64,000 nt of DNA from positions 186,001 to 250,000 of the forward strand of contig NZ_AJLF01000001.1 in assembly GCF_000258515.1 (NCBI RefSeq), written 5' to 3'. This stretch comes from Thermococcus zilligii AN1 (GTDB lineage Archaea; Methanobacteriota_B; Thermococci; Thermococcales; Thermococcaceae). This document shows positions 19,207 to 23,717 of this stretch, piece after piece; the stretch's first letter is position 1; every line of letters starts with the position of its first letter. A model generated the notes under the pieces. It was not told the DNA's origin. It did not search any database and saw only the letters and a program-made list of their open reading frames with translations. The translations under genes were made by a program, and so were the position numbers.

Positions 19207-19430
19207 TGGGGGGCTTTTTAGGCGGGTAGTTGTTTTGGAGAGCATGGCCTCACTGAGGCCGGTAATGTTTGAGGCGACTTGATGAAGGAATTACCGTAGC
19301 CTGTGACTGGGTAGTGTTCTGCGTCGGAGGGACGTTGACTTCTTTTACATTAGAATGTCAAAAATCCCCCGGGAAAGCTTTAAAAGCGGCCGTCCAAGTT
19401 TCAACTGAAGAACTTTCCGGAGGTTTTACT
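19207..19430. other. Intergenic region with two consecutive inverted repeats
   Basis: Between the broken nucleotidyltransferase and the HPS-PHI gene there is a perfect hairpin, GGCCTC (19246-19251), ACT, GAGGCC (19255-19260). It is followed immediately by GGTAAT (19261-19266) paired with ATTACC (19290-19295). TTGATGA lies inside the second loop. The right end carries the HPS-PHI promoter. No coding frame is supported. Confidence 0.45.
19377..19386 (+). promoter_or_regulatory. Promoter of the HPS-PHI gene
   Basis: GCTTTAAAAG, preceded by a purine-rich BRE-like GGGAAA, is a strong TATA box. The expected transcript start near 19410 leaves a leader of about 20 bases with GGAGGT before the ATG at 19431. 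Confidence 0.65.
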
Positions 19431-20651
19431 ATGATACTCCAGGTGGCACTCGATTTGACCGATATTGAGCAGGCCATTTCTATAGCGGAAAAAGCCGCCC
19501 GCGGTGGCGCTCACTGGCTTGAGGTTGGGACCCCCCTCATCAAGAAGGAGGGCATGCGCGCCGTTGAACTTCTGAAGAGACGCTTCCATGACAGGAAAAT
19601 CGTTGCCGACCTCAAAACCATGGACACTGGGGCGCTTGAGGTTGAAATGGCGGCCAGACACGGTGCAGACGTCGTCTCAATCCTTGGCGTTGCCGATGAC
19701 AAGACGATAAAGGACGCGGTTGAAGTCGCCAGGCGCTACGGGGTAAAGGTGATGGTCGACCTCATAGGGGTTAAAGACAAGGTGGAGCGCGCCAAAGAGC
19801 TTGAGAAGATGGGGGTTCACTACATACTCGTCCATACGGGCATAGACGAGCAGGCCCAGGGTAAGAACCCCCTCGAAGACCTTGAGAAGGTCGTCAAGGC
19901 CGTTAACGTCCCGGTTGCGGTTGCGGGCGGGCTTAACCTCGAAACGATTCCAAAGGTTATAGAGCTCGGTGCCACGATAATAATCGTCGGTGGCGCCATA
20001 ACGAAGGCAAAAGACCCTGAGGAGGCCACGAGAAAGATAATAGACCTCTTCTGGGGAGAGTACATGCAGACGATCAAGAAGGCCATGAAGGACATCGTGG
20101 AGCACGTCAACAACGTCGCTGAAAACCTGAGGCTCGAGCAGGTTCGCGGCTTCGTCGATGCCATGATAGGGGCGAACAAGATATTCATCTACGGCGCCGG
20201 AAGGAGCGGGCTCGTTGGAAAAGCCTTCGCGATGCGCCTCATGCACCTCGACTTCAACGTCTACGTCGTTGGCGAGACTATAACACCGGCCTTCGAGCGG
20301 GGAGACCTCCTCATAGCGATCAGCGGTTCCGGTGAAACCACGAGCATCGTTGACGCGGCAAAAATAGCCAAAAATGTGGGTGGAAAGGTCGTCGCGATAA
20401 CCTCCTACTCGAACTCGACCCTCGGAAAGCTCGCAGATGTAGTCGTTGAGATACCCGGCAGAACGAAGGAGGACGTGCCCACAGACTACATAGCCAGACA
20501 GATGCTCACAAAGTACAAGTGGATAGCCCCGATGGGAACGCTCTTCGAGGACTCCACGATGGTCTTCCTGGACGGTGTAATCGCCCTCCTCATGGCGACC
20601 TTCCAGAAGACCGAAAAGGACATGAAGAGGAAGCACGCAACGCTCGAGTGA
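19431..20651 (+). CDS. Bifunctional 3-hexulose-6-phosphate synthase / 6-phospho-3-hexuloisomerase
   Basis: The 406-residue fusion interconverts ribulose 5-phosphate plus formaldehyde and fructose 6-phosphate. In Thermococcales it runs in reverse to supply pentose for nucleotides, since the oxidative pentose phosphate pathway is absent. Residues 1-210 are the HPS TIM barrel, of the orotidine-decarboxylase suprafamily (VADLKTMD, DVVSILGVADD, VAVAGGLN). Residues 215-406 are the SIS-domain isomerase (FIYGAGRSGLVGKAFAMRL, AISGSGETTS). The ATG at 19431 follows GGAGGT; the long upstream extension in frame precedes the promoter and is not coding. Confidence 0.95.
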   Translation: MILQVALDLTDIEQAISIAEKAARGGAHWLEVGTPLIKKEGMRAVELLKRRFHDRKIVADLKTMDTGALEVEMAARHGADVVSILGVADDKTIKDAVEVARRYGVKVMVDLIGVKDKVERAKELEKMGVHYILVHTGIDEQAQGKNPLEDLEKVVKAVNVPVAVAGGLNLETIPKVIELGATIIIVGGAITKAKDPEEATRKIIDLFWGEYMQTIKKAMKDIVEHVNNVAENLRLEQVRGFVDAMIGANKIFIYGAGRSGLVGKAFAMRLMHLDFNVYVVGETITPAFERGDLLIAISGSGETTSIVDAAKIAKNVGGKVVAITSYSNSTLGKLADVVVEIPGRTKEDVPTDYIARQMLTKYKWIAPMGTLFEDSTMVFLDGVIALLMATFQKTEKDMKRKHATLE

Positions 20652-20694: not shown

Positions 20695-21447
20695 ATGCTT
20701 AACTTTACCCACGTTTTCGTTGGAATAGGGAAAGCCGGCGGAAGCGTTGTGGATGGAATAGAGAGCGACGTTGTTAAGGTTCGGATAAATCCGGGCTACT
20801 ATATTCTTCGTACCGGGACTTACTCTGAGAAAATAGCCTCCTTTTTTTCCAGGCTTCCGGAGAACTCCCTGGTGTGGATAGTTTTTGAGGACAAGCCTGT
20901 GAACGTTGAGATAGTTAAGCTCATATCCGAAAACCTCCCCGAAGGCACGATGGGCCTGGCCTACGTCTTTACCCCCTCCAGGGAGCTTTTTGAGGAGAGT
21001 AAGCCCTCCTGGGCCAAAAATTTTGAGACGGTCTTCTACGACTCCCTGTGGGAGTTCCTGAAAAGGGACGTTCCCCTGCTTGAGGCATATGAAGAGGCCT
21101 CGGTGGTTATTTCCCGGGCCCTTACCCTGCTCCACAAGAGCCTTGAGGGACAGATGGTCATAAACGTTGATTATGCCGATTTCTTTTCAACTGTCAGAGG
21201 CGGCAACGTTGGAATCCTGCGCCTACTGGGCAGGGTTGACTTCGACTGGCACTGGGGAGTCTGGGACAGGGGGATAGTTATAACTATAGTCGACGAGGGG
21301 GTAGCGCTCAGGGATGCCCATGCCGTCCTCCAGAGGTTTCATGACCTTTTGAAGGAGAAGGACATAATATGGGGGCTGATCTCAAGAAAAACCGCGGGGA
21401 CAGGGATTGAGACTCTCACACTGCTCGTCAGGGAATGGGGGGAGTAA
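20695..21447 (+). CDS. FtsZ/tubulin-like protein lacking the GTP signature loop
   Basis: I assign the 250-residue protein to the FtsZ/tubulin fold by pattern. Residues 8-22 (FVGIGKAGGSVVDGI) match the FtsZ T1 nucleotide loop. Residues 154-163 (MVINVDYADF) match the T7 catalytic loop, with N157, D159 and D162 in the FtsZ N-x-D-x-x-D spacing. Residues 220-246 (KDIIWGLIS...IETLTLLV) match the C-terminal domain strands. The T4 GGGTGTG signature is absent: residues 62-72 read IVFEDKPVNVE instead. The region between T1 and T4 is also about 30 residues short. It probably cannot hydrolyse GTP alone. It leads a five-gene operon; GGTTTATTAG at about 20655 is its TATA box. Confidence 0.6.
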   Translation: MLNFTHVFVGIGKAGGSVVDGIESDVVKVRINPGYYILRTGTYSEKIASFFSRLPENSLVWIVFEDKPVNVEIVKLISENLPEGTMGLAYVFTPSRELFEESKPSWAKNFETVFYDSLWEFLKRDVPLLEAYEEASVVISRALTLLHKSLEGQMVINVDYADFFSTVRGGNVGILRLLGRVDFDWHWGVWDRGIVITIVDEGVALRDAHAVLQRFHDLLKEKDIIWGLISRKTAGTGIETLTLLVREWGE

Positions 21448-21448
21448 A

Positions 21449-22099
21449 ATGGTACAGGCACTGCTCTTTGACGTGGACTACACCTTACTCACCGAAATGC
21501 CGCTTATACAGCTTTTTCTCCCTCGGGTTTACGAGAAACTTGCAAAAAAGCTGGGAGTAAACAAGGAGGAGGCCAGAAACAGGTTCCTATCGGAGATATT
21601 TTCAAGGAAAGACACCTACGAGTGGCATGATTGGAATTTCTTTTTCAGGCTCTTTGATCTCGACATGGAGTACGAGGAGCTGATTGAGAGATATCCCCAC
21701 AGGATAACCGTCTACCCTGACGTTCCCCCCGTTCTCGAGTGGCTTAAGGAGGAAGGTTATCTCCTGGGAGTGGTTACCAGCGGTCCAGAATATCAGAAGG
21801 TGAAGCTGAAGATAACCGGTCTGGATCGCTATTTTGATGTCGTGGTTACCCGGGAGGACGTCGGTGAGATAAAGCCGAGCCCAAAAATTTTTCTCTACGC
21901 CCTTGAAACCTTGGAAGTAAACCCCGAGAATGCTGTTATGGTGGGAGATTCCCTCTGGCAGGACGTCTACGGCGGGAAGAACGTCGGCATGAAGACTGCC
22001 TGGATAAATCGCTCCGGAAACGATAGCGATTACCATTTTGCCGACTTCCGGATAAAGACATTCCACGAGCTTAGAAAGATAGTGGGGGTGTTGCCATGA
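21449..22099 (+). CDS. HAD-superfamily hydrolase
   Basis: The 216-residue protein is a class I HAD phosphatase. Motif I is LLFDVDYTLL (nucleophile D near residue 9), with a helical cap at about 18-85. Motif II is GVVTSGP, motif III lies at the lysine of GEIKPSPKIF, and motif IV is VMVGDSLWQDVYGGKNVGM. The substrate is a small phosphorylated metabolite that cannot be named from sequence; phosphoglycolate phosphatases and pyrimidine nucleotidases share this outline. The ATG lies one base after the stop of the FtsZ-like gene, with GGGGGA before it, so the two are co-translated. Confidence 0.85.
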   Translation: MVQALLFDVDYTLLTEMPLIQLFLPRVYEKLAKKLGVNKEEARNRFLSEIFSRKDTYEWHDWNFFFRLFDLDMEYEELIERYPHRITVYPDVPPVLEWLKEEGYLLGVVTSGPEYQKVKLKITGLDRYFDVVVTREDVGEIKPSPKIFLYALETLEVNPENAVMVGDSLWQDVYGGKNVGMKTAWINRSGNDSDYHFADFRIKTFHELRKIVGVLP

Positions 22100-22287
22100 G
22101 GGAGATATTCAGTAAGGAGGGGGTTTTTGTAAGGTACGGGGAGAAAACCGTAAAGCTGGAAAACGGGCACGAGATCGTCCACAGGTCGGAAAACCCGACT
22201 GAGCTGTGGTGGGAACTGAAGGAGGCCCTCAAGGGCAGGAGGGTCAGGGTTGTGGTCTATGAACTTGAGGAGAGCGGGGAAAAGTGA
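22096..22287 (+). CDS. Small hypothetical protein, 63 aa
   Basis: This strand-rich, charged protein has no recognised family. It begins with an ATGAG overlap with the HAD gene and ends in a GTGA overlap with the D-glutamate-cyclase-like gene, so it is an internal member of the five-gene operon. Its length and composition would suit a small beta-barrel or ribbon domain, perhaps a subunit of the neighbouring enzyme. Confidence 0.6.
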   Translation: MREIFSKEGVFVRYGEKTVKLENGHEIVHRSENPTELWWELKEALKGRRVRVVVYELEESGEK

Positions 22288-23096
22288 TAGCACACATCAT
22301 AAATACCGACGCTGGCGGCAGGGGAATAGGAAGAGTTTACCTGGAATACAGGCTTTCCAGCTTTAATTTTATGGAGAAAGCCACCGAAACTTTCCTTGAC
22401 AATCTGGATAAAACGCTTGTAATAACCGGGTTCCCCATACCCCCTTCTATGGTTCCCGAAACTGACGGCCCTCCGGGGGCTCTTGCCCTTGTCCGGGCTG
22501 TGGAAGACCTCGGCGGTAGCGCGGAGGTTCTCAGCTATCCGGAGGTTCTGGAGGCCATCAAGGGGTTTGGCGTCAGTGTCGCTGGAGACGTGGAAGTCTC
22601 AAATTACTCCCTTATTATAGCTATCGAGACCCCCGGAAGGGCCTCCGATGGAAAATACTACTCAATGAGCGGTACCGAGATAATCAGAGGAGCCTTCGAC
22701 GGTATTTTTCTCGAGGCCAGGGAATATGGAATACCCACGATAGCCATCGGTGACGGTGGCAACGAGGCTGGAATGGGCAATATCAGGGGACTGATTGAGC
22801 GCTACATCCCGCTGGGAAGAAAAATAGCCAGCGTTGTCGGGGCGGATCATCTGATAACCTCGGGAGTCTCGAACTGGGGTGCCTACGGGCTCGTGGCTCA
22901 GGCGTCCCTGATGGCTGGCAGGAACCTTCTCCTGGACTGGGACGAAAGGAAAGTCCTCACCGCCCTTAAAGCCGGGGGAATAATCGACGGGGTTAGAAAA
23001 AGAGCTTGCTTGAGTGTTGATGGTATCGGCCTTGAGGTTCACGAGAAGATAGTGGAGCTTTTAAAAACCGTAGTGAACGATGCCCTCGGTGATTGA
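22284..23096 (+). CDS. D-glutamate cyclase-like protein (DUF4392)
   Basis: The 270-residue protein resembles the C-terminal domain of D-glutamate cyclase (DUF4392, PF14336), which converts D-glutamate to 5-oxo-D-proline. Supporting motifs are ITGFPIPPSMVPETDGPPGA near the N-terminus, AIETPGRASDGKYYSMSG in the middle, IAIGDGGNEAGMGNI and a C-terminal VGADHLITSGVSNWG. It starts at GTG 22284, overlapping the previous stop. The true substrate in Thermococcales is not known, and D-glutamate is not a usual archaeal metabolite, so a related acid may be used. Confidence 0.72.
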   Translation: MIAHIINTDAGGRGIGRVYLEYRLSSFNFMEKATETFLDNLDKTLVITGFPIPPSMVPETDGPPGALALVRAVEDLGGSAEVLSYPEVLEAIKGFGVSVAGDVEVSNYSLIIAIETPGRASDGKYYSMSGTEIIRGAFDGIFLEAREYGIPTIAIGDGGNEAGMGNIRGLIERYIPLGRKIASVVGADHLITSGVSNWGAYGLVAQASLMAGRNLLLDWDERKVLTALKAGGIIDGVRKRACLSVDGIGLEVHEKIVELLKTVVNDALGD

Positions 23097-23717
23097 ATGA
23101 AGCTGGAGGAGTTCATATCCAACCCTCAATCCAGACAGCTCATAGAGTCCGTTAGAAATTTTGCCAGGAGCTTCTTTGAAAGGGACGGAACCCACGGCTT
23201 CAGCCACGTGGAGAGGGTGTTTAACCTGTGCCTCCACATCGGGAGAGAAGAGGGGGCTGATCTGGAGGTTCTGGCCTTAGCGGCCCTCCTCCACGACATA
23301 GCCAGGCCCCTGGAAGATGCGGGGAAAGTTGAGGATCACGCCGCTGAGGGAGCGAGGATCGCCAGGGGGTATCTCAAAGGCCTTGGCTATCCCGATGAGA
23401 AAGTTGAGGCAGTTGCCCACGCCATAGAGGCCCATCGCTTCTCCCGCGGGCCGGAACCCGGAACGCTCGAAGCCAAAATCCTCAGCGATGCTGACAAGCT
23501 CGACGCCATCGGGGCCGTGGGCATAGCGAGGGTCTTTATGTATTCCGGTGAGCATGGGAGGGATATAGAAGCTTCGATGAGGCACTTTGAGGAGAAGATA
23601 TTAAAGCTAAAGGACTTGATGTACACTGAAACGGCCAGAAAAATAGCCGAGGGGAGGCATCGCTTTACTGAGGAGTTCCTGCGCCGGTTAAGGCTTGAAA
23701 TAGAGGGAGAACTCTGA
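23097..23717 (+). CDS. HD-domain phosphohydrolase
   Basis: The 206-residue protein has the HD metal ligands in order: H37 (HGFSHVERV), the H66-D67 pair (LLHDIAR), histidines in VEAVAHAIEAH, and D131/D133 in LSDADKLDAIG. This pattern is found in small archaeal and bacterial HD phosphohydrolases acting on nucleotides or other phosphoesters. The ATG follows the previous stop directly (TGAATG), so it is the last gene of the operon that begins with the FtsZ-like gene. Confidence 0.83.
   Translation: MKLEEFISNPQSRQLIESVRNFARSFFERDGTHGFSHVERVFNLCLHIGREEGADLEVLALAALLHDIARPLEDAGKVEDHAAEGARIARGYLKGLGYPDEKVEAVAHAIEAHRFSRGPEPGTLEAKILSDADKLDAIGAVGIARVFMYSGEHGRDIEASMRHFEEKILKLKDLMYTETARKIAEGRHRFTEEFLRRLRLEIEGEL

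Follow-up and report, generated by a model that had tools for sequence, protein, structure and literature searches.

We found that the archaeon Thermococcus zilligii AN1 encodes a divergent member of the FtsZ/tubulin superfamily that retains the canonical T7 synergy loop of FtsZ (NxDxxD) and, judging from its sequence, has lost the GTP pocket. The gene begins with ATG and lies in a stretch of 64,000 nucleotides (henceforth the window) from a 1.76 Mb assembly of 5 contigs. This pattern of loss and retention, in a core gene of the Thermococcus/Pyrococcus family, suggests a protein that specifically regulates the division filament or caps its end.

20695..21447, + strand: FtsZ-superfamily protein of 250 amino acids, predicted to be pocketless, family F1 (P0001); assigned by profile, HMM-HMM comparison and fold model

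Relationship of F1 to FtsZ

Single-sequence searches with the F1 protein gave no match in Pfam, only ftsZ in NCBIfam (E 0.047) and, with phmmer, a match of residues 111-177 to A. aeolicus FtsZ (2r6r, E 0.006). A profile of the family, built from an alignment of 41 sequences (A1), matched M. jannaschii FtsZ1 (1w58) with an E-value of 2e-7. The aligned stretches are separate but lie in the right order, and comprise the T1 region, H6/H7/T7 and the C-domain. HMM-HMM comparison with Thermococci FtsZ2 extended over the full length (246 columns, E 9.5e-13).

The preliminary description of this gene called its product FtsZ-like and proposed a fold prediction as a check, with an unrelated fold as the contrary outcome. 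The AlphaFold2 model has a pLDDT of 90.6 and a pTM of 0.90, and the best 50 Foldseek matches listed from the PDB are all FtsZ (best E 1.9e-11, TMq 0.58-0.72). A viral fold library yielded few strong matches to the model, mostly phage FtsZ and tubulins. Given the profile, HMM-HMM, AlphaFold2 and Foldseek results, F1 is a member of the FtsZ/tubulin superfamily at the level of fold, with a GTPase-domain fold joined through H7 to a C-domain, and we regard its superfamily membership as well supported.

Pfam profiles recognize the family poorly. FtsZ_C weakly matches 20 of the 41 members (best E 4.7e-4) and Tubulin only one (E 0.053), and neither Tubulin_2 (PF13809, FtsZl1) nor the CetZ_C domain (PF21011) is among the Pfam matches of the F1 protein or the family members. 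A canonical FtsZ matches Tubulin and FtsZ_C above the curated cut-off, which the F1 protein does not. F1 also departs from canonical FtsZ in T3, T4, T6 and the tail.

Retained and lost parts

We mapped F1 onto FtsZ2 by alignment and scored conservation over 51 distinct F1 sequences. The relevant parts are as follows.

20722..20742, + strand: T1-like loop GIGKAGG, residues 10-16; G10 and G12 identical in all 51 sequences, G15 in all but one
20785..20793, + strand: T2 remnant INP, residues 31-33, with NTD replaced; the T2 Asp of FtsZ and the following Gln are lost
20887..20910, + strand: T4-equivalent EDKPVNVE, residues 65-72, with the GGGTGTG deleted and N70 invariant
21025..21051, + strand: S6/T6 equivalent ETVFYDSLW, residues 111-119; Y115, D116 and S117 invariant, T6 Asn-Asp of FtsZ gone
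21163..21180, + strand: T7 loop NVDYAD, residues 157-162; N157, D159, A161 and D162 invariant in 51 of 51
21205..21438, + strand: shortened FtsZ C-domain, residues 171-248; S9 strand with W226-G227, without the helix of about 16 residues after S7 and without the C-terminal tail

The archaeal FtsZ2 (and FtsZ1) of T. zilligii share with F1 full-length homology, the T1 glycines (pattern FVGIGxxG in F1), H7, the T7 loop (NxDxAD) and the I-x-W-G of S9, which in F1 contains W226-G227. By contrast, F1 lacks their T3, T4 GGGTGTG, T6 Asn-Asp, T2 Asp/Gln, helix after S7 and C-terminal tail. The T7 loops correspond residue for residue, with N240, D242, A244 and D245 of FtsZ2 aligned to N157, D159, A161 and D162 of F1. 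FtsZ2 T3 (LLGKEITQGKGSGGDPEVG) and T4 (GMGNGTGT) fall wholly inside a gap of the mapping, and the position of T6 Asn-Asp is occupied by Y-D-S-L-W. The C-domain is short of some 16 residues (the GESDSKNRAVEAVKA helix), and the protein ends about three residues past S10.

Most of what had been read from the letters alone thus holds. The GIGKAGG at residues 10-16 is present in the translation, NVDYAD is indeed the T7 loop, EDKPVNVE does stand in place of T4, and the T2/T3 span is short, with T3 deleted in the mapping to FtsZ2. The C-domain-like strands were also borne out, in that a profile aligns the C-domain, though in its shortened form. The view that F1 has no pocket of its own is right as far as the GTP signature goes, but the T1 glycines, N70 and Y115-D116-S117 are invariant or nearly so in the 51 sequences. 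It therefore appears that the GTP pocket was lost while the face it occupied is conserved for some purpose.

Many invariant residues of F1 fall outside T7; besides those at the former pocket, they include W61 and a W-x-W-G-x-W stretch. The conserved function is therefore not confined to the T7 face, and the invariant N70 and Y115-D116-S117 imply that another ligand or partner may bind at the former pocket.

Distribution and operon context

Of 94 Thermococcaceae genomes, 89 contain a match to F1, normally as one copy; among the 74 good genomes the number is 72. A phylum-wide profile search found no clear orthologue outside Thermococcaceae, and a search of plasmids and viral contigs found no relatives. 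In six close pairs, dN/dS of F1 is 0.06-0.12; of two further pairs, one gave 0.22 from too few differences and the other is saturated. These data show F1 to be a core gene under purifying selection in Thermococcaceae.

Two genomes carry extra copies. G070 has an intact copy on contig C3 and a second that is split across two overlapping frames (C2:360947-361698), and G067 has two intact copies. The extra copies could be paralogues, or could reflect a frameshift or an assembly mixture.

In the window, F1 lies between two genes that belong to a conserved operon.

19431..20651, + strand: fused 3-hexulose-6-phosphate synthase/6-phospho-3-hexuloisomerase (HPS-PHI), upstream; the mechanical open reading frame starts at 19269, and the ATG at 19431 is our reading of the start
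21449..22099, + strand: HAD-family phosphatase, downstream, 1 bp past the F1 stop codon

The order HPS-PHI, F1, HAD phosphatase is found in nearly all of 25 loci examined, from six genera. HPS-PHI and F1 are separated by 5-55 bp in the 19 loci that parse cleanly. Distances in the other six exceed 1000 bp, which we think are artefacts of alignments that run through a stop codon. The HAD gene is usually within a few bases of F1. The operon apparently continues at 22096-23717 of the window with genes for a 63-amino-acid protein that has no Pfam match, a D-glutamate-cyclase-like C-terminal-domain protein and an HD-domain protein, and many loci share these genes.

HPS-PHI provides pentose phosphate for nucleotides in these archaea (PMC12628685). 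The linkage fits co-regulation of F1 with nucleotide supply, but is no proof of function.

FtsZ paralogues in the same archaea

All 94 Thermococcaceae genomes also encode intact FtsZ-type proteins. T. zilligii has FtsZ1, FtsZ2, CetZ and SepF, all encoded away from the F1 gene. Its FtsZ1 and FtsZ2 (L036 985-2118, - strand; L037 1390-2640, + strand) carry ...EF at the C-terminus, preceded by an arginine-containing stretch, possibly a shared tail motif.

A second family of FtsZ paralogues, P0002, belongs to another Thermococci family, where it is encoded by 9 of the 10 genomes of a single genus (L079 1021-1950, + strand, 309 amino acids; L114-L122). Its T1, T3 and T4 are destroyed, its T7 (SLVNIDFADFR) is identical in 9 of 9 sequences, and its C-domain is nearly frozen. 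The AlphaFold2 model, made from 9 sequences, is poor (pLDDT 55), and the fold assignment of P0002 is consequently one of sequence homology only.

Both F1 and P0002 are thus FtsZ paralogues that have lost T3 and T4 and have an intact T7. They differ in that P0002 has a full-length N-domain and C-domain, is closer to FtsZ2 (HMM-HMM E 5e-33, versus 3e-8 for the F1 family) and has another gene neighbourhood. Its closeness to FtsZ2 and its distinct neighbourhood suggest, but do not prove, a separate origin of the two families. Trees did not place F1; it and P0002 form long branches in a joint tree as well as in separate ones, and the trees favor neither FtsZ1 nor FtsZ2 as its parent and neither a common nor a separate origin of the two families.

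Genome G112, from another of the Thermococci, encodes a third FtsZ-type paralogue of 327 amino acids (L080 1957-2940, + strand). Its GTP signature is intact, and it branches outside the sampled FtsZ1 and FtsZ2 groups.

Possible role of F1

To our knowledge, little is understood about the regulation of archaeal FtsZ filaments beyond SepF. Within a filament, each FtsZ subunit places its T7 loop in the nucleotide site of the one beneath it.

In Staphylococcus aureus FtsZ filaments, the GTP held by a lower subunit is acted on by the T7 residues Asn208, Asp210 and Asp213 of the subunit above it, and D46, Q48 and G72 of T3 in the lower subunit complete the GTP site; growth takes place at the end where T7 is exposed (PMC8936486). 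F1 keeps counterparts of the T7 Asn/Asp/Asp and has none of D46, Q48 or T3. We therefore tentatively favor a role, which we put at a little short of an even chance, in which F1 uses its T7 face to dock at the end of an FtsZ filament where GTP is exposed, capping it, supplying catalytic aspartates, or both. F1 would be unable to assemble into a normal GTP-driven filament, since its acceptor side for the next T7 loop is rebuilt. Its T7 face would sit on the top end of an FtsZ1 or FtsZ2 filament, where GTP is exposed, and cap that end, and its two T7 aspartates could trigger terminal GTP hydrolysis, making F1 a top-end regulator. Capping or GTPase stimulation had been suggested in the preliminary description, and either would agree with the anatomy of F1 and with its conserved catalytic Asn and Asp residues. 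Co-expression with HPS-PHI might link filament control to metabolism, which is a guess.

Several further observations count for capping: the FtsZ fold and full-length homology to FtsZ2, the invariant T7 in a protein without T3 and T4, the mostly low dN/dS, the presence of normal FtsZ in all 89 genomes that have F1, and the same pattern of loss in P0002. Counted against it are the invariant residues outside the T7 face (those of the old pocket, W61 and W-x-W-G-x-W) and the location of the gene in a metabolic operon rather than beside division genes. In addition, the shortening of the C-domain near S7 may alter the bottom interface. A fuller proposal is that F1 is a dedicated FtsZ-derived top-end cap and GTPase trigger, which donates T7 in trans and accepts none, and that such T7-only paralogues evolved on two or more occasions within Thermococci. 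This we consider doubtful.

The conserved residues at the old pocket could instead mean that F1 uses the FtsZ fold as a sensor of a ligand. Its reshaped pocket, with the T1 glycines, N70, Y115, D116 and S117, would bind some other small molecule, such as a sugar phosphate or nucleoside connected with the HPS-PHI operon. Its T7 face would then act on FtsZ or another partner in one state only. The old pocket has invariant residues specific to the family, and the conserved operon with HPS-PHI and the HAD phosphatase in the loci examined agrees with such a role; however, T3 and T4, which hold the phosphates in FtsZ, are gone. We judge a sensor to be unlikely.

The operon, together with the many invariant residues outside T7, would also be compatible with F1 forming its own assemblies or a heteromer apart from FtsZ filaments, e.g., a scaffold for the HPS-PHI and HAD enzymes, with T7 purely structural. 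However, it is not obvious why a loop with only a structural part should need all three T7 contact and catalytic residues, which are invariant in F1 and are retained in P0002 as well. We judge a scaffold to be unlikely too, slightly more so than a sensor.

Two other explanations are already contradicted and merit hardly any credence. The lost GTP signature and shortened domains might indicate a degenerating, functionless relic of FtsZ, but the low dN/dS in most pairs and the occurrence in the same operon across nearly all good Thermococcaceae genomes oppose this. A Rossmann look-alike with a chance NxDxxD would account for the lack of a Pfam match to the protein alone, but the profile, HMM-HMM and fold evidence all indicate FtsZ.

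Comparison with known systems

Our search of open-licence papers found no description of the F1 family. A published survey gathered homologues with the Pfam Tubulin profile, PF00091 (PMC9871819), which barely detects F1. F1 may be a regulator that surveys starting from this profile have overlooked. With its nucleotide site apparently shed and its T7 frozen, F1 would be a natural separation-of-function protein, and it makes the polarity and trans-catalysis of FtsZ filaments directly testable.

FtsZl1 (Tubulin_2), described by Makarova and Koonin in 2010, is likewise a prokaryotic branch that has diverged within the FtsZ superfamily. Its conservation extends from the nucleotide-binding end through H5, and T6-H7 is not identifiable (PMC2875224). 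Retention in F1 is the opposite, with T7 kept and T3 and T4 lost.

The Bacillus subtilis inhibitor MciZ attaches to FtsZ at the bottom face, which bears T7 (PMC8936486). The principle proposed for F1, capping of a filament end, is the same, with the binding of F1 being our inference. Unlike MciZ, F1 would supply a T7 face of its own and bind the opposite end.

CetZ, of which T. zilligii has one copy (L038 904-2004, - strand), belongs to the same superfamily as F1. The CetZ protein has retained the GTP signature and has a match to PF21011, whereas F1 has neither. At the position of T7, this CetZ has TLDASDLK, without the Asn of N-x-D-x-x-D.
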